Source: Marinoscillum furvescens DSM 4134 (lineage in GTDB: Bacteria; Bacteroidota; Bacteroidia; Cytophagales; Cyclobacteriaceae). Taken from it: DNA of 58,247 nucleotides. Below are positions 44,570 through 53,222 of this stretch, piece by piece. Position numbers and translations under genes: made by a program. The notes under the pieces were generated by a model. It did no database searches, was not told where the DNA came from, and saw only the letters and a list, made by a program, of their open reading frames with translations. Position 1 is the first letter of the stretch. Each line of letters begins with the position of its first letter. The stretch is taken from positions 1 to 58,247 of the forward strand of contig NZ_QREG01000029.1 of the NCBI RefSeq assembly GCF_003386095.1, read 5' to 3'.

Positions 44570-47014
44570 ATGAAACGTTTTATCCTTTTTACCGCCATAA
44601 TCCTCAGTGCTAGTCATTTGCTATTGGCTGAGGATGACGCCTACCAGGTAAACCTACCGGTAGATCAGCACATGGCACTTTGCAAAACTCCCACTGGAGC
44701 CATCACCACGTCTGGTTTCAGCGAGTATTTCCAAAACCTCTTTAATACCACCAGCTATCCTGCCCGATGGAGCTGCGGCACCTGGTCGGAGTTCGAAGGA
44801 TGGTTCATGATCGTTTCGGACATATCCATCTTTACGGCATATCTCAGCATCCCTATTTTACTGGTTTTCATCCTATATAGAAGAAAGCAGGACGTACCCT
44901 TTAAAAAATTCCTGGCCCTTTTTGCGGCATTCATTCTTCTGTGTGGCTTTACACACCTGATAGAAGCCATTATCTTTTGGGAGCCGATTTATCGTTTTAG
45001 CGGCTTTCTAAAATTCGTTACTGGAGTCATTTCCTGGGTTACAGTCATAGCACTCACCCAGGCCATCCCTGTAGCGCTCAATTTCAAAAGCCCCTTTGAG
45101 CTGCAGCAAGAAATTGACAAAAGAACGCTTGTAGAGCAGCAACTAAACCTATTTATAAAATACACACCAAATGCTGTAGCCATGTTTGACAAAGACATGA
45201 ACTACCTGGCAGCTAGCGACCGCTGGTACTCAGCATATGGAACATCACAAAGCATCATTGGCACCAACTACTTCATTGATTCTAACCCATTTCTGAATAA
45301 CCCATCGTGGGTTGACTCCATTAAGCTAGCCCAGCAAGGCAAAAAAGTGAGTAAGGAGCAAGATGCCATTGAGCTTCAGGGCACAATGGAGTACTTCCGA
45401 TGGGACCTACAGCCGTGGTACGACCTAAACGGTGATGTGGGTGGGATCATCATGTTTACAGAAAACATCACTGACAAAGTAGTTGCCCAGCAAAAGCTAG
45501 AAGAGCGCGAGCAATTCCTTGCAAATATTTTTAACACGGCACCTATTGGAATAGCATTAATTGATTCTACAGCTAAACCCTTCATGGTCAATGGCCGATT
45601 TTGCCAGATTCTAGGCTATTCGGAAGAGGAAGTCCTAAACAACACAGTGATGGAAATGACGCATCCAGATGATCTAGAAAAGTCCACTGAATGCTTTGAG
45701 CAGCTTAAAAATCAGGAGACTAGTGTGCTTTCTGTAGATAAAAGGTATTTGCGAAAAGATAAAAGCATCGCTCATGCCAATGTTTCGCTCTCCAAAATTG
45801 AAGACCCCATTGATAAGTCTACCTACTTTTTGGCTATGGTAAATGACACCACTGAGTTGGTGCTAAAAAACCGGGAAAATAAGCAGCAGAAAGAAGAGCT
45901 ACAAGAAACCACTGCCATGATGGACACTGCGTTTAAAATCGCAAGAATCGGCAGCTGGGAGCTCGATCTGGAAAAGCAATCCGTATTTTGGAGCGACATG
46001 GTTTATGACATTCATGAACTCCCGCTAAACACCAAAATCACGTTAGAATCTGCTATCAACTACTATCATCCTGATCACGCGCCTTTGATCTCAGCGGCAG
46101 TAAACCTGGCAATAGAAAAGCACGAGCCGTGGGACCTGGAACTGCGTCTGGTCACAAGCACCAAAAAAGATGTTTGGGTGAGAGCTGTAGGACATCCGGT
46201 CATTACTGATGGCAAAGTCACCAGCCTTAAAGGACTGTTTCAGGACATAGACGTAAAAAAACGCTATGACCTGGAAATACAAAATAAGAAAGCAGAACTC
46301 GAACACCTGGTAAACCAGCGTACCAGTCAGCTGCAAAACGCCAACAAGGAACTAGAGGCGTTTACCTACTCCGTTTCACATGACCTCAGGGCACCACTTC
46401 GTGCTATCAATGGTTTTTCCAGAGCCATTCATGAGGATTACAGCGAGCAACTCCCCGACGAGATCACCATGTACCTGGACCGGATCATAGGAAATGCCAA
46501 AAAAATGGGCGAGCTAATTGATAACCTGCTGGAGCTAAGCCGCCTTTCAAGGAAAAATACCAACATGAGCCAGTTTGCTGCCGAGAAGCTTATTGGGGAA
46601 ATCGTTCAAGCAGATCCGCTGTATAAAAAAGTGAAATTTGATATTAGTGAGCTTCCGACTATCCATGGGGACTACAGCCTATTGGGACAGGTATTTCAAA
46701 ACCTGATATCAAATGCTGTGAAATACAGCAGCAACAATCCTGACCAACTGGTGACGATCTATGGCGAAAGTACCGACTCCCACGTTTCCATAACCATTCA
46801 GGACAATGGCGTAGGGTTTAGCATGGAATATGCCGATAAATTATTTGAAGTATTTCAGCGCTTGCATACTGATCGCGATTTTGAAGGAACAGGCATCGGT
46901 CTGTCCATTTGCAAAAGAATCATAGACATGCACAACGGCGAAATTAGCTTCTTGTCAGAAGAAGGTAAAGGAGCTTCATTCACTATTTCATTACCCAAAT
47001 CCGAAAAATCATGA
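44570..47014 (+). CDS. Histidine kinase with ethylene-receptor-like (ETR1-type) membrane domain and PAS domains
   Basis: 814 residues. A signal-like N-terminus (1-20) and short periplasmic part with Cys38 and Cys69 are followed by a three-helix membrane domain (about 82-170). This carries Asp84, Tyr91, Ile94, Pro95, Ile122, Cys125 and His129, the same residues at nearly the same spacing as the ethylene/copper-binding residues of Arabidopsis ETR1 (Asp25, Tyr32, Ile35, Pro36, Ile62, Cys65, His69). Then come three PAS domains (about 195-305, 315-430, 450-565), a coiled coil, a HisKA domain with His604 (FTYSVSHDLRAPLRAI) and a HATPase domain (N-box NLISNAVKYS, DNGVGF, GTGIGLSI). The stop overlaps the Rcp1-like regulator ATG by 4 nt. 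Ethylene binding is inferred from conserved residues and is untested; other ligands are possible. Confidence 0.9.
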   Translation: MKRFILFTAIILSASHLLLAEDDAYQVNLPVDQHMALCKTPTGAITTSGFSEYFQNLFNTTSYPARWSCGTWSEFEGWFMIVSDISIFTAYLSIPILLVFILYRRKQDVPFKKFLALFAAFILLCGFTHLIEAIIFWEPIYRFSGFLKFVTGVISWVTVIALTQAIPVALNFKSPFELQQEIDKRTLVEQQLNLFIKYTPNAVAMFDKDMNYLAASDRWYSAYGTSQSIIGTNYFIDSNPFLNNPSWVDSIKLAQQGKKVSKEQDAIELQGTMEYFRWDLQPWYDLNGDVGGIIMFTENITDKVVAQQKLEEREQFLANIFNTAPIGIALIDSTAKPFMVNGRFCQILGYSEEEVLNNTVMEMTHPDDLEKSTECFEQLKNQETSVLSVDKRYLRKDKSIAHANVSLSKIEDPIDKSTYFLAMVNDTTELVLKNRENKQQKEELQETTAMMDTAFKIARIGSWELDLEKQSVFWSDMVYDIHELPLNTKITLESAINYYHPDHAPLISAAVNLAIEKHEPWDLELRLVTSTKKDVWVRAVGHPVITDGKVTSLKGLFQDIDVKKRYDLEIQNKKAELEHLVNQRTSQLQNANKELEAFTYSVSHDLRAPLRAINGFSRAIHEDYSEQLPDEITMYLDRIIGNAKKMGELIDNLLELSRLSRKNTNMSQFAAEKLIGEIVQADPLYKKVKFDISELPTIHGDYSLLGQVFQNLISNAVKYSSNNPDQLVTIYGESTDSHVSITIQDNGVGFSMEYADKLFEVFQRLHTDRDFEGTGIGLSICKRIIDMHNGEISFLSEEGKGASFTISLPKSEKS

Positions 47015-47445
47015 ATAACAACCTCGACATCCTACTCGTAGAGGACAATCCAGATGACGCTTCATTGGCATTGAGAGTGCTAAAAAAAGTCGTACCCAGA
47101 GAAAATATCGTATGGGTAAATGATGGAGCAGAAGCCCTCGATTTTATGTTTGCAAAACGTGCTTATGCAGACCGGGACCCGTCCATACAGCCACGCCTCA
47201 TTTTGCTAGACCTTAAACTTCCTAAGCGTATGGGAGTTGAAGTACTAGAGGAAATTAAAGCCAATGCTTCTACCTGCGAAATACCCGTGGTGGTACTTAC
47301 TTCATCCAAACAAGAAAAAGATTTAGCAAAATGCTATAAACTTGGAGCAAACAGTTATGTTGTAAAACCGATAGATTTTGACCAATTTACCGAAGCGGCC
47401 AAAAATATCAGTACTTACTGGCTGATGGTCAACCAGGTACCCTGA
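47011..47445 (+). CDS. Single-domain response regulator, Rcp1-like
   Basis: 144 residues, receiver domain only. Acidic pair Glu11-Asp12, phosphoacceptor Asp67 (LILLDLKLP), Thr97/Ser98 and Lys119 (YVVKPIDF) are all there. The long loop before Asp67 (AKRAYADRDPSIQPR) is typical of Rcp1, the partner of cyanobacterial phytochromes. It overlaps the ethylene-receptor-like kinase by 4 nt, so it is its partner. With no output domain it probably acts by protein contact or relays phosphate. Confidence 0.93.
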   Translation: MNNNLDILLVEDNPDDASLALRVLKKVVPRENIVWVNDGAEALDFMFAKRAYADRDPSIQPRLILLDLKLPKRMGVEVLEEIKANASTCEIPVVVLTSSKQEKDLAKCYKLGANSYVVKPIDFDQFTEAAKNISTYWLMVNQVP

Positions 47446-47461: not shown

Positions 47462-49234
47462 TTGAACAACCAGCAAATACATATTTTATACCTAGAAGAC
47501 AATGAGAATGATGTACTTCTCCTGGAGCGTGTCCTGAAAAAATCCAACTTATCATTTAAGCTCACACATATTTCCTCCCGTGAGGAACTCGTCGAAAAGC
47601 TGCAAAACAAGCAGCAACCTGACCTGATTATATCTGATTTCAATCTCAACGGAATTACAGGAGCAGATGCGTTGCAGATCGTAAGAGCCACAGACCCGGT
47701 GGTTCCATTTTTGTTTTTGTCGGGTACGCTCGGTGAAGAGCGAGCCGTTGACCTCATGCGCAAAGGGGCTAATGACTACATCCTCAAAGGTCATGATGCA
47801 CGTATACCACGCACCATTCTGCGTCTGCTGCAGGAGGCCGAAAACAGGCGCATACAGCTAAGCAACGCAGATGAACTCGTACAGAAAAACGCCATCCTTC
47901 AGACCATTATGGAAAGCGTTGTTGATTTGCTATTCCTCAAGGACGAAAACAGACGATACATTACGTTCAACAAATCTTTTGCTCAACATTTCAACCTCGA
48001 ACTGAAAGACGCTCAGGGTAAAACAGATGAAGAGCTGTTTCGCTATGATTTTGTATACACCTCACGAGAGTCGGACAATTACGTATTGAAGTACAACTCC
48101 AGAATTCTTTTCGAAACCGAATATGCAAACAGCCACGGGGAGCGGGTAATCATGGAAACGCTCAAAACTCCGCTACATTCCGTAAAGGGCATGAAACGCG
48201 GAATAGTAGGTGTGAGTAGGGAAATCACCAGCAAGAAAAAACAAGAAGAACAACTCCGAAGAAAAGAACTCCTCCTTCATCAGTCCGAAATTCAGACGAA
48301 ATCAGGGAGTTTTGAACTGCAAGTCAAACAAAAAGTAATTCACTGCTCAGATCAGTTTTTGGAAATCCTGGGCTTTGAAACAAAAAAAAACAAGCTCCCA
48401 TTTTCGGCATTTATCAACAGGGTGTTTGAAGCTGAGCGCGACATAGTACGTGAAGCCATACAAGAAGCCGTTAGAAACCAGGAAGTCTTCGAAATGGAGC
48501 ATAGATGTCTGGCCAAGTGGAGCAATGATATCATCTACTGCCGCACCTCTATGAAGCCCGATGTAAACTCCTATGAAAACACCATCTACTATGGCACGAT
48601 AGTAGACATTACCGAAGAGCGGACAAACAAAAATGCCATCCTGGATGCTCAGGAAAACGAAAGGCGTCTCATAGCCGCAGATCTACATGATAGCCTCACA
48701 CAAAAACTAGTAGCCGCCAGCATGTACCTTTCGTCGATGAGTAAAGACAACCTACGCATTGACCGGGTAGAGACAGCAGACGATCTGATTAGATCTGCAT
48801 TGGAGGAAACCCGGCGACTGAGCAGAAACCTCTCCTTACATTCCATGGAAAACATGGGGCTAAAAAATTCATTACTGGACATCATCGAGTCATTCCCTGC
48901 TGAAATCCATATAGATTACAAATTCGATTTTGAGGAAGAGGATATCACCACCGAAATCACCATGAACATCTACCGGATCATACAGGAAGCCCTGGCCAAT
49001 GTAATGAAATATGCAAAAGCCAATAATGTTCACCTCAGCATAGAAAGATCAGGCTCTGCTCTGCTATGTGTGCTATCTGACGATGGTATCGGCTTTGACC
49101 TCAGCCTGGAAGCTACACAGGGCAATGGGCTCAAAAACATCCGCCAAAGAGTAGCTAAATGCAATGGCATATTGAACCTTCAGTCTGAGCCAGGAACAGG
49201 AACTCGCTTTGAAATTTTAGTGCCCCGCAAATAA
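47462..49234 (+). CDS. Receiver-PAS-PAS histidine kinase (HisKA_3, NarL-type)
   Basis: 590 residues. Receiver domain 1-125 (Asp59 in LIISDFNLNG, Lys109), PAS (about 140-255), second PAS (about 275-385), HisKA_3 with His409 (ERRLIAADLHDSLTQKLVAA, given as ERRLIAADLHD and SLTQKLVAA) and HATPase_c (about 495-588; NGLKNIRQRV, GTGTRFEI). The start is TTG at 47462, 16 nt after the stop of the Rcp1-like gene, so it probably belongs to the same operon, and its receiver could take phosphate from the kinase at 44.6 kb. A LuxR-type regulator, the usual partner of HisKA_3 kinases, is absent. Confidence 0.9.
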   Translation: MNNQQIHILYLEDNENDVLLLERVLKKSNLSFKLTHISSREELVEKLQNKQQPDLIISDFNLNGITGADALQIVRATDPVVPFLFLSGTLGEERAVDLMRKGANDYILKGHDARIPRTILRLLQEAENRRIQLSNADELVQKNAILQTIMESVVDLLFLKDENRRYITFNKSFAQHFNLELKDAQGKTDEELFRYDFVYTSRESDNYVLKYNSRILFETEYANSHGERVIMETLKTPLHSVKGMKRGIVGVSREITSKKKQEEQLRRKELLLHQSEIQTKSGSFELQVKQKVIHCSDQFLEILGFETKKNKLPFSAFINRVFEAERDIVREAIQEAVRNQEVFEMEHRCLAKWSNDIIYCRTSMKPDVNSYENTIYYGTIVDITEERTNKNAILDAQENERRLIAADLHDSLTQKLVAASMYLSSMSKDNLRIDRVETADDLIRSALEETRRLSRNLSLHSMENMGLKNSLLDIIESFPAEIHIDYKFDFEEEDITTEITMNIYRIIQEALANVMKYAKANNVHLSIERSGSALLCVLSDDGIGFDLSLEATQGNGLKNIRQRVAKCNGILNLQSEPGTGTRFEILVPRK

Positions 49235-49647: not shown

Positions 49648-50358
49648 ATGGGAAGAGCATTTGAATACCGAAGAGCAGCCAAAGAAGCAAGATGGGATAA
49701 AATGTCCAAACTGTTTCCAAAACTTGCCAAAGCCATCACAGTAGCTGTAAAAGAAGGCGGCTCAGATCCGGAAATGAATGCTAAGCTGCGTACGGCCATT
49801 CAAAATGCCAAGGCACAAAACATGCCTAAAGACAACATCGAAAACGCTATCAAACGCGCTAGCGGAAGTGATGCAGCAGAGTATACAGAAGTAACATACG
49901 AAGGCAAAGGACCACATGGTGTTTTGGTATTTGTAGAATGTGCTACAGACAATACCACACGTACGGTAGCCAATGTAAAATCATACTTCAACAAAGCCGG
50001 TGGAGGCGTAGTACCCAATGGCTCACTAGAGTTTATGTTCAACAGAAAGGCGGTTTTTGAAATGGAAAAACCTGAAGGCGTTGACCTGGAAGAACTGGAA
50101 CTGGAACTTATAGACGCTGGCCTTGAGGAAATAGAAGTGAATCAGGACATGATCTACCTGTATGCTGATTACACCAATTTTGGATCACTCTCCAAAGCCC
50201 TGGAAGACAAAAATCTGGATGTTAAGAAAGCCAACCTTCAGCGCATCCCCACCTCGCCGGTGGAGTTTTCTGACGAGCAAATGGAAGAAATAGAAAAAAT
50301 GCTGGACAAGATCGAAGACGATGATGATGTCCAGGCAGTCTTCACCAATATCGCCTAG
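49648..50358 (+). CDS. YebC/PmpR-family protein (TACO1-like)
   Basis: 236 residues. Starts [20 protein letters not shown], the family signature, and contains [16 protein letters not shown] (about 58-73), [19 protein letters not shown] (about 83-101) and [17 protein letters not shown]. YebC proteins were first called transcription regulators; recent work on the family links them to helping ribosomes at proline-rich stretches. It has its own promoter and overlaps the convergent six-PAS kinase by 4 nt. Confidence 0.95.
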
Positions 50359-53222
50359 TCAATAGCTTTAACTTTGAGCTCTACCATGACCATGGTGCCC
50401 TGAGCACCACTATTCACTTCAAAGTGAGCACCTATAGAGGTGGCACGGTTTTTCATACTGGTGAGCCCAAACGTCTTGTCTGTGGTGGTCTTAAACACGT
50501 CAAACCCCACCCCATTGTCTTCCACAGTGAGGGTCAACAGCCCGTCCTTCAACGTCAAGTTGACATGTACCTCGGAGGCTTTGGAGTATTTGATCACGTT
50601 GTTGCAGCTCTCCTGCAAAATCCTGTAAAGACTCAGCTCCACTGTGCCGGGCAGCCGCTCATTGGTCAGGTTGGTCATGTAAAAAAAATCGATATTGGAG
50701 GCCCTGCGCATGGTATTTACGAGTGTTTCGGTAGCTGCCGCTATACCAAAATCCTCTACAGCAGCAGGCATCAAATCATAGGACACCGACCGTGACTCCA
50801 TCAATCCTTCGTCCAAAAACTTCAAGCCCACATCAAAATTTCTCCGAATATTTTCACCTAGCTCGTCCACCCGGTGAGCAATGGATTCCAGGTTCATTTT
50901 GGCGGTGATCAACAGCTGCTGCACACTGTCATGTAGCTCCTGGGCTATTCGCTTCCGTTGCTTATCTTCAGCGTTGATCGTAGCAGCTATAATTTGCTCC
51001 TGCGTCTGAATTTCCCGTGTCACATCCCGAAAAGTTGCCTCCACAATGTGCTTCCCGTTTTCACTTTGTAGGGCCGCATAAAAATTGGCGATAATCTGCT
51101 CTCCGTCTTTGCGCCGCAACTCCAATCTCACATTTTCCAACTCCTTTTGTTGCATTAATTCTGAGCGGAAATACTTCAGGTTCACGGATGGCTCATTGGC
51201 TATTTTACTAAAATTTCTCCCGATCAGTTGTGATGGAATCCGATATCCTAACATTGTAGCGGCAGCAGGGTTGGCATTGAGAATTATACCCTCAGGGTCT
51301 ACCATGAGATAGCCATCTTTTATGCTTTCAAATATGCGTCTGTACTTGCGTTCGCTTTGCTCCAGGCGCTGACGTGCCCGCACCTGGCTGGTTTCATCTA
51401 TGTGTATCCCCACTATTTTGATAGGCTTACCCTGCTCATTGCGCTCTACAGACCCCTGCGCATGAATATGGCGAATCTCCCCATTTCTGTTGATCCGGTA
51501 GTTGTTTTCAAACCGATCAGCATTGTCATACTCTCGGTTATATTCACCCCGCAGCTTTCGCCTATCCTGGGGAATCACACATTGCAAAAACTCCGACAAA
51601 TTACCTACGTGTGGCTCTGGAGGTAAACCAAAAATCTCTGCTGATTTGCGATCCCAATAGTTGATATCACGTGGTATATCATAGATAAAAAAACCAGCAT
51701 TGGCACCAGATATCGCCAGTGCGAATTGCTTATTTGCCAGACTAAGTCGTGCATTGGTGGTGAGCTCAGAGGTAATATCATAAAAGATCCCAATGAGGCC
51801 CATCACTCGATCATTCGAATTAAAGAAAGTGCTCTTATGAAGCTTAATGGTTCGCTTCTTCTCCCCCACCAGCACCTCGGTTTCCGTCACAGAGTCTTTG
51901 AGGGTGCCAAACAGCATGAGCTTATCCGTCTTGGTCAGCTTTTCCGTCTCCTCAAAGTTTACCACAGCATATAGCGACTGCCCAATGATACGATGCCTGC
52001 TCAATCCTACAAACTCACAAAACGCCTGGTTCACCTGTCTCACCTGACCATTGGTATCCGTAAAAAAGAACGGATTTGGAATGGTATCAATAATCGCCTT
52101 TTGCTTGGCTTCATTGTTTAGCGCTTTTTGTTTGGCCTTTACCTCCTCTGTGATATCCTGAATGGTTCCAAAAACCACTTGCGAATCTTCATACTTTGGG
52201 TCCACATTTACTTCTACCCATTTCTGATTCCATCCAGCAATTATTCGGTGCACATATTGTCCGGGCTTTGGCAGTTCTCCCTTGGCCCAGTTTATATGAT
52301 CCGGATTGATAAACACCTCAAACGTAGGCATATCCAGCCGGGTATCTGGAGGCAGTTCACAGATTTGGTACACTTCGTCTGACACTTCAAAAACTCCCGC
52401 CTGTTTGGAAAGCGTCCAGTGCCCCAGCTTAGTGATGCGCTCTGCCCTGGTGAGTAGCCGATGGCTCACTTCCAGCTCATGCTTTTGCCTGCGGAGCATC
52501 ATTGCCTGTTCCTCTGTGGCAGTAATGTCCTGAAACACACCCTGTATGAGCTTTTCTTTGCCAGAAACTATCCTCTCAGAAATAAAGCGGACCCGAACCC
52601 AAATTTGGTTACCCTCATAGGTACGCATTCTGGTAGTGACTGGCTGTCCTGCGGCAGTAGCCTGGCTAAAGCTCGCCACCAAATAAGCGAAATCCCCTTC
52701 ATCAAACAAACCATCCACATTGTCAGCACGAAGTACATATCCTTCAGGTAGTTGTAGGAGGGACCGAGCAGATTCACTCAGCCAAAAGTCTTGTGTTTGT
52801 TCGTTGTAACTCCAGGAATTGAGACTGGAAAAGTCCATGACATTTTCAAGGTCTTCGCCAGACCAACCATGAAATTCTCCTGACTTATAGACTACCAGTA
52901 CCTGATCAGATGAAGGTGTGAGTAGTAGTTCTCCAATACGATGAGGGTCTGAACTGAGCATACATGGGATAGACTGCTGTGTTAGCTTGCCTGATGTAAG
53001 GCTGTCGATAGCTTCACGTACCAATCCCATCCTTAGGCTAGTGCCGTCTAAGCTATACAGCAAAAGCATCAGTTCCTCCAGGGTATTCCCTTCTGTGAGG
53101 CCCAATGTACTTCTGCCGGCTTCATTGATATATGTCAATTGCTCGTCAGTCCCAAACTTCATTATAAAGTCCGAGCTGAGACCTGCCAGATACTCAAAGT
53201 CCTGGCACTGCTGGCTGTTCAA
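50355..53222 (-). CDS. Six-PAS sensor histidine kinase (HisKA_3, NarL-type), cytoplasmic
   Basis: 955 residues with no transmembrane segment. PAS/PAC modules at about 8-112, 125-240, 265-365, 372-488, 495-615 and 625-740, most with a PAC ending (e.g. [60 protein letters not shown]). HisKA_3 holds His764 ([13 protein letters not shown]) and the HATPase domain has [19 protein letters not shown] and [10 protein letters not shown]. The start is TTG at 53220-53222; a TAGATTTG -7 element lies 33 nt upstream and no in-frame ATG fits the first PAS. No response regulator is adjacent. Confidence 0.9.

Follow-up and report, generated by a model that had tools for sequence, protein, structure and literature searches.

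The locus analysed here raises the question of whether a bacterium of the phylum Bacteroidota carries an ethylene receptor of the kind known from plants. The window, that is, the whole stretch of DNA under analysis (58,247 nucleotides of Marinoscillum furvescens DSM 4134, contig NZ_QREG01000029.1), encodes a sensor histidine kinase with an ethylene-binding-type membrane domain, followed by a response regulator and a second kinase (Table 1). An earlier note on this DNA had proposed that the first kinase senses ethylene or a similar small ligand through copper, and had held that functional evidence in this phylum would be new; we found none for ethylene sensing in the literature searched. Published work is cited here by PMC number, and L, G, C and g numbers are our own handles for loci, genomes, contigs and genera. 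Bacterial homologues have been described in cyanobacteria, proteobacteria and ‘other bacterial phyla’ (PMC11819568, PMC13012798, PMC6586836, PMC10452086, PMC7700396, PMC6944256, PMC12722077), and the sole mention of Bacteroidetes in PMC10452086 concerns ACC deaminase. Among the matches listed in a search of mostly open-access literature, no paper was found on Bacteroidota ethylene receptors, nor on ethylene domains that are split or fused to a copper ATPase.

Table 1. Features of the operon in the window and of the copper-ATPase/ETR1_N fusions in other genomes
Feature	Position	Strand	Length	Basis and remarks
Sensor histidine kinase	44570..47014	+	814 aa	Pfam, ORF reading; hydrophobic segment 4-22, ETR1_N 77-171, PAS-type 199-303 and 316-429, HisKA 596-660, HATPase_c 700-811
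ETR1_N (ethylene-binding-type) membrane domain	44798..45082	+		D84, Y91, I94, P95, I122, C125, H129
Rcp1-type response regulator, single-domain	47011..47445	+	144 aa	Asp67; Pfam, PDB comparison
Receiver-PAS-PAS-HisKA_3-HATPase kinase	47462..49234	+	590 aa	Pfam
Copper-ATPase/ETR1_N fusion	L160:3440-8038	+	1532 aa	G327
Copper-ATPase/ETR1_N fusion	L168:4389-8987	-	1532 aa	G513
Copper-ATPase/ETR1_N fusion	L182:3936-8168	-	1410 aa	G879
Copper-ATPase/ETR1_N fusion	L183:152-3775	+	1207 aa	G1082
Copper-ATPase/ETR1_N fusion, partial	L166			G856; cut by contig end; frame holds CPC motif and domain

The sensor kinase and its membrane domain

The membrane domain matches Pfam family PF25487 (ETR1_N) over kinase residues 77-171 with 105.1 bits against a cut-off of 27 (E 2.4e-30). 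The family matches once in the M. furvescens genome and not at all in 14 control genomes; on this score and these controls a chance three-helix resemblance was rejected. When the contigs of the genome were scanned with the full protein, 15 loci matched its kinase or PAS parts and none matched the ETR1_N part. All seven residues listed for the domain in Table 1 align with identical residues of ETR1 (D25, Y32, I35, P36, I62, C65 and H69); the seven are named as necessary for ethylene binding by ETR1 (PMC11819568). The earlier note had placed these residues, and His604 within HisKA, correctly, and the ETR1-like spacing that it described holds with one additional residue between the positions of Pro36 and Ile62. 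It had made no mention of the N-terminus, where a hydrophobic segment and then about 50 residues precede the domain. No GAF domain matched between the membrane and kinase parts of the window kinase; Pfam reports PAS matches instead, including a PAS_3 stretch additional to the two PAS-type regions of Table 1. The matches of an NCBIfam scan were almost all to generic models of kinases and receivers and fell short of the cut-offs; TIGR00229 (PAS) exceeded its cut-off for this kinase and for the third protein of the operon.

Hydropathy places three hydrophobic segments in the ETR1_N region (85-103, 117-135 and 152-170). An AlphaFold2 model from 56 aligned sequences predicts helices at 74-104, 112-134 and 141-170, plus one at 175-194, with a mean pLDDT of 88.9, a pTM of 0.72 and helix blocks at pLDDT 91 or more. 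On ideal helices, D84, Y91, I94 and P95 share one face of helix 1 while I122, C125 and H129 share one face of helix 2, and equal one-sidedness on both helices arose in 49 of 20000 random draws. This one-sidedness lends modest support to an ETR1-like domain; EPR distances measured on ETR1 agree better with a different model than with that of AlphaFold (PMC13012798). As to solved structures, that of the ethylene-binding domain is said to be elucidated in PMC10452086, and an experimental high-resolution structure is said to be still lacking in PMC13012798. PDB sequence searches with the domain and with alignment A1 (without L070, which has an ambiguous base, and without L090 and L091, whose sites are changed) returned no relative, the four rows of the domain query lying at E 0.34 or more, and Foldseek on the model gave no match at E 0.001 or better.

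The response regulator and the third gene

The stop codon of the kinase gene and the start codon of the regulator gene share 4 nt (ATGA), as noted earlier, and the unit holds both a histidine kinase output (HisKA, HATPase_c) and a linked regulator gene. The label ‘Rcp1-like’ given to the regulator is fair since RcpB (1k66), RcpA (1k68) and Rcp1 (1jlk, 1i3c) are among its best PDB matches, at ranks 4, 5, 7 and 8 (E 1e-25 to 2e-21), with three other response regulators ranking above them; its Asp67 is also where it had been placed. The single pathway proposed for kinase and regulator is better read as one of three genes. A third gene, absent from the earlier note, begins 16 nt after the regulator, and its close homologues (E 1e-105 or better) sit at the corresponding position in two loci of genus g35 (L067, L074) and two of g32 (L070, L078), a three-gene order common to four loci from two other genera of the same family. 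The putative pathway would comprise these three genes, possibly with an unlinked LuxR-type regulator as a further part. In L067 and L074 the fourth gene is, by eye, a LuxR-type regulator, whose best match in the window's genome (C13:55862-56494, 55% identity) has no kinase gene directly adjoining and a kinase-like gene about 2.4 kb off.

Within the genus the three-gene unit is not conserved: of three further genomes sampled, two (G007 and G088) carry the domain with no single-domain regulator adjoining it, and G133 lacks the domain. In 21 of 50 non-split loci, the window included, the next same-strand gene encodes a receiver protein no longer than 200 aa; in the other 29 it does not. Downstream of the operon lie a gene that is YebC-like by eye (49648-50358) and, convergent to it, a gene for a 955-aa multi-PAS HisKA_3 kinase (50355-53222, minus strand).

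Comparison with known receptors and regulators

AzoEtr1 of Azospirillum brasilense binds ethylene in a radioligand assay, both in Pichia and in A. brasilense (PMC11819568). On a plasmid of A. brasilense strain 2020WEIHUA_K (L162) we find a 525-aa ETR1_N-PAS-HisKA-HATPase kinase overlapping by 8 nt the gene for a 135-aa regulator, sizes equal to those of AzoEtr1 and its regulator in strain Sp7 (PMC11819568). In the window kinase as in AzoEtr1, the ethylene-binding domain is N-terminal and has the seven residues, PAS and HisKA/HATPase parts are present, and the gene of a single-domain regulator overlaps downstream. Of 100 aligned positions, 38 are identical between the window domain and the AzoEtr1-like one, and 33 between the window domain and ETR1. 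The window unit differs from AzoEtr1 in the hydrophobic segment and the residues that follow it ahead of the domain, in having RWxCGxW ahead of helix 1 where AzoEtr1 has PHGxC, and in more PAS-type regions and a third gene for a HisKA_3 kinase. Because the layout matches that of AzoEtr1, an ethylene binder, we take the window unit to be a further member of a known receptor family; judged by sequence, sensing of ethylene through Cu(I), as in ETR1 and AzoEtr1, is the most likely role of the kinase. With Arabidopsis ETR1 it has in common the three-helix domain, the Pfam family, the seven residues and the histidine kinase, whereas ETR1 has GAF and receiver parts; here PAS stands in place of GAF and the regulator is a separate protein. 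That regulator resembles Rcp1, RcpA and RcpB in being a single receiver domain of about 145 aa, and differs from them in its partner, an ethylene-receptor-like kinase rather than a phytochrome.

Distribution of the domain and conservation of its site

At E 0.001 or better, PF25487 matches were found in 39 of 148 genomes of the window's family (38 above cut-off), 57/291 of its order (56) and 21/395 of its phylum (21), counts that include the window's own genome and come from overlapping samples. The family of G327, one of the fusion-bearing genomes of Table 1, has matches in 6 of 80 genomes (6 above cut-off), and its class in 11 of 391 (9). A plasmid search with a 108-aa window query matched 17 records, including Azospirillum (7), Novosphingobium (2) and cyanobacteria.

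We aligned 70 domains: that of the window, 38 from family loci, 20 from order and phylum regions and 11 others (L165-L169, L182-L187). Forty of the 45 non-window matches in the family sample were taken, G015, G019, G102, G139 and a weak match in G031:C64 being outside the locus set, and L092 and L093, unmatched by the query, outside later counts. After the 20 regions from order and phylum matches, eight were added later from phylum and class-of-G327 matches. All seven site residues are kept in 51 of the 70 domains. By position the counts are His 68, Tyr 67, Ile35 66, Cys 66, Ile62 65, Pro 64 and Asp 58 (Asn 9, Glu 3), the Asp position being the most variable. We presume this residue, Asp25, to be the one whose change to asparagine in a receptor lowered ethylene affinity. 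Such a change of a conserved aspartate in the receptor's membrane domain reduces affinity about 100-fold and leaves a working receptor (PMC13012798). Three proteins of 603-609 aa (L185, L186, L187), with an additional N-terminal hydrophobic stretch by eye, have Thr at the Pro36 position and the rest of the site intact.

Copper-ATPase fusions and copper supply

In five genomes from three families of another class of the same phylum, a CopA-type copper ATPase and ETR1_N lie in one frame. The fusions L160 and L168 are 93.6% identical and run HMA, P-type ATPase, ETR1_N, PAS, HisKA, HATPase, an order found also in L182; L183 has HMA, ATPase and ETR1_N, with PAS scoring below its cut-off and no kinase domain found, and the frame continues into a kinase in three of the five (L160, L168, L182). 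All five have Asn at the Asp25 position and carry CPC, YN and MxxSS, which we take to be marks of Cu(I) pumps, and none has an inner stop. An assembly join was rejected as their origin, the same join without inner stops occurring in G327, G513, G1082 and G879, from three families. Beside L160 are cydAB upstream and an Rcp-like regulator and a receiver kinase downstream, and L168 is alike by eye. In plants the ATPase RAN1 provides ETR1 with copper (PMC13012798, PMC12722077), and the bacterial protein resembles a natural RAN1-ETR1 fusion. By this analogy, since RAN1 supplies the copper of ETR1, the fusions argue for copper in the bacterial domain, a support that extends to the domain in general and not specifically to the window protein.

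The window's genome has one P-type ATPase (G000:C21:8675-10579, L171), which adjoins what by eye seem to be genes for metal efflux. No CPC-type pump was found in this genome and, because its lone P-type ATPase has CPH and not CPC, neither was a RAN1/CopA-type copper supplier; loading of the receptor by a CopA-type pump of this genome was rejected on that ground. Could the domain then be a Cu(I) sensor, with copper occupancy and not ethylene as the signal and the kinase reporting envelope copper? The fusions, the CPH ATPase beside efflux-like genes and a site in which His, Tyr, Cys and Ile35 are better kept than Asp would all suit such a sensor. The Asp is kept, however, in the window, AzoEtr1-like and ETR1 sequences, and no copper gene was recognised by eye beside the window operon; we consider a copper sensor unlikely.

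Subtypes and split forms of the domain

Among 74 rows (the 70 domains and four references), RWxCGxW, the window type, stands ahead of helix 1 in 33 and P[HY]GxC in 25, which include the AzoEtr1-like, Pseudanabaena and Blastomonas references. The remaining 16 have neither motif and include ETR1 and the five copper-ATPase fusions; as exceptions, L055 is cut and L088 is one inserted residue off the motif. A FastTree tree built from 63 sequences has a branch, supported at 0.97, that unites all four references, ETR1 among them, with the PHGxC type, away from the window type, the deep branching order being uncertain because the alignment is short (154 columns). As far as sequence can tell, the window kinase belongs to the RWxCGxW subtype, whose N-terminal part sets it off from both AzoEtr1 and ETR1. 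A copper-based receptor for another small ligand (another alkene or alkyne, CO, isoprene-like volatiles) would agree with this separate subtype, with the extra N-terminal segment and with our finding no binding-tested member in the literature searched, but all seven ethylene residues are kept and, by eye, the gene neighbourhood shows no recognised pointer to such a ligand, making this reading slightly less probable than a copper sensor. In L090, L091, L154, L167 and L169 the copper/ethylene site residues are changed as aligned, and these proteins possibly bind another ligand or none; that the window domain, too, is now solely a membrane anchor and dimer contact, with the several PAS-type regions receiving the signal, is quite improbable given its seven intact residues.

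In nine loci (L054-L058, L061, L062, L144, L145) the domain is a separate small protein of 143-193 aa (L055 being cut by a contig end) ahead of a membrane kinase of 385-494 aa with its own membrane part, which in L054 has four hydrophobic segments. These kinases were identified by Pfam in L054, L056, L144 and L145 and elsewhere by similarity to that of L054. A regulator follows in seven of the nine, giving three genes (L054, L056, L057, L058, L061, L062, L144), and L055 and L145 have two. The split-form domains form one tree group (support 0.99), and we read the arrangement as a putative two-protein receptor in which the domain is a subunit beside the kinase.

Proposed mechanism and its significance

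Copper and ethylene sensing is the best-supported reading of the window unit, argued by analogy from the family, the seven residues, the AzoEtr1 layout and the copper-ATPase fusions of relatives. The kinase would be a homodimeric membrane receptor. Cys125 and His129 would bind Cu(I) within its three-helix domain, and near Asp84 this copper would bind ethylene or a closely similar gas that is small and unsaturated. Occupancy would change how active the HisKA/HATPase core in the cytoplasm is, and this core may phosphorylate Asp67 of the overlapping regulator; the regulator in turn would act on the third-gene kinase by contact or phosphate exchange. That kinase may have as its output a LuxR-type regulator, the gene for which is adjacent in L067 and L074 and lies elsewhere in this genome. 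Several observations count against the chain from copper/ethylene receptor kinase through Rcp1-type regulator to third-gene kinase: ETR1 and the AzoEtr1-like, Pseudanabaena and Blastomonas proteins lie across the 0.97 branch from the window subtype, a single-domain regulator comes next in only 21 of the 50 non-split loci, other genomes of the genus do not conserve the three-gene unit and no RAN1/CopA-type supplier was found in the genome. On balance we hold this chain, taken as a whole, to be somewhat probable.

The range of architectures in the phylum is more unusual than the window unit. We put forward, tentatively and as rather doubtful, that the phylum has its own family of copper-gas receptors, comprising the RWxCGxW subtype, a two-protein receptor and a receptor that follows its own copper ATPase in one fused chain. 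If this is true, a single bacterial polypeptide includes the copper loading for which plants use two proteins (RAN1 and ETR1), and the origin of the sensing domain may have been a copper-handling module. The copper-ATPase fusions would offer a single-chain system for how Cu(I) reaches the receptor, and the separate domain protein of L054, at 159 aa, offers a compact object for a first structure, a solved homologue not having been found in the PDB. The published binding assay in Pichia is applicable to the window subtype, and if the window receptor binds ethylene, gas-hormone sensing would extend to this phylum.
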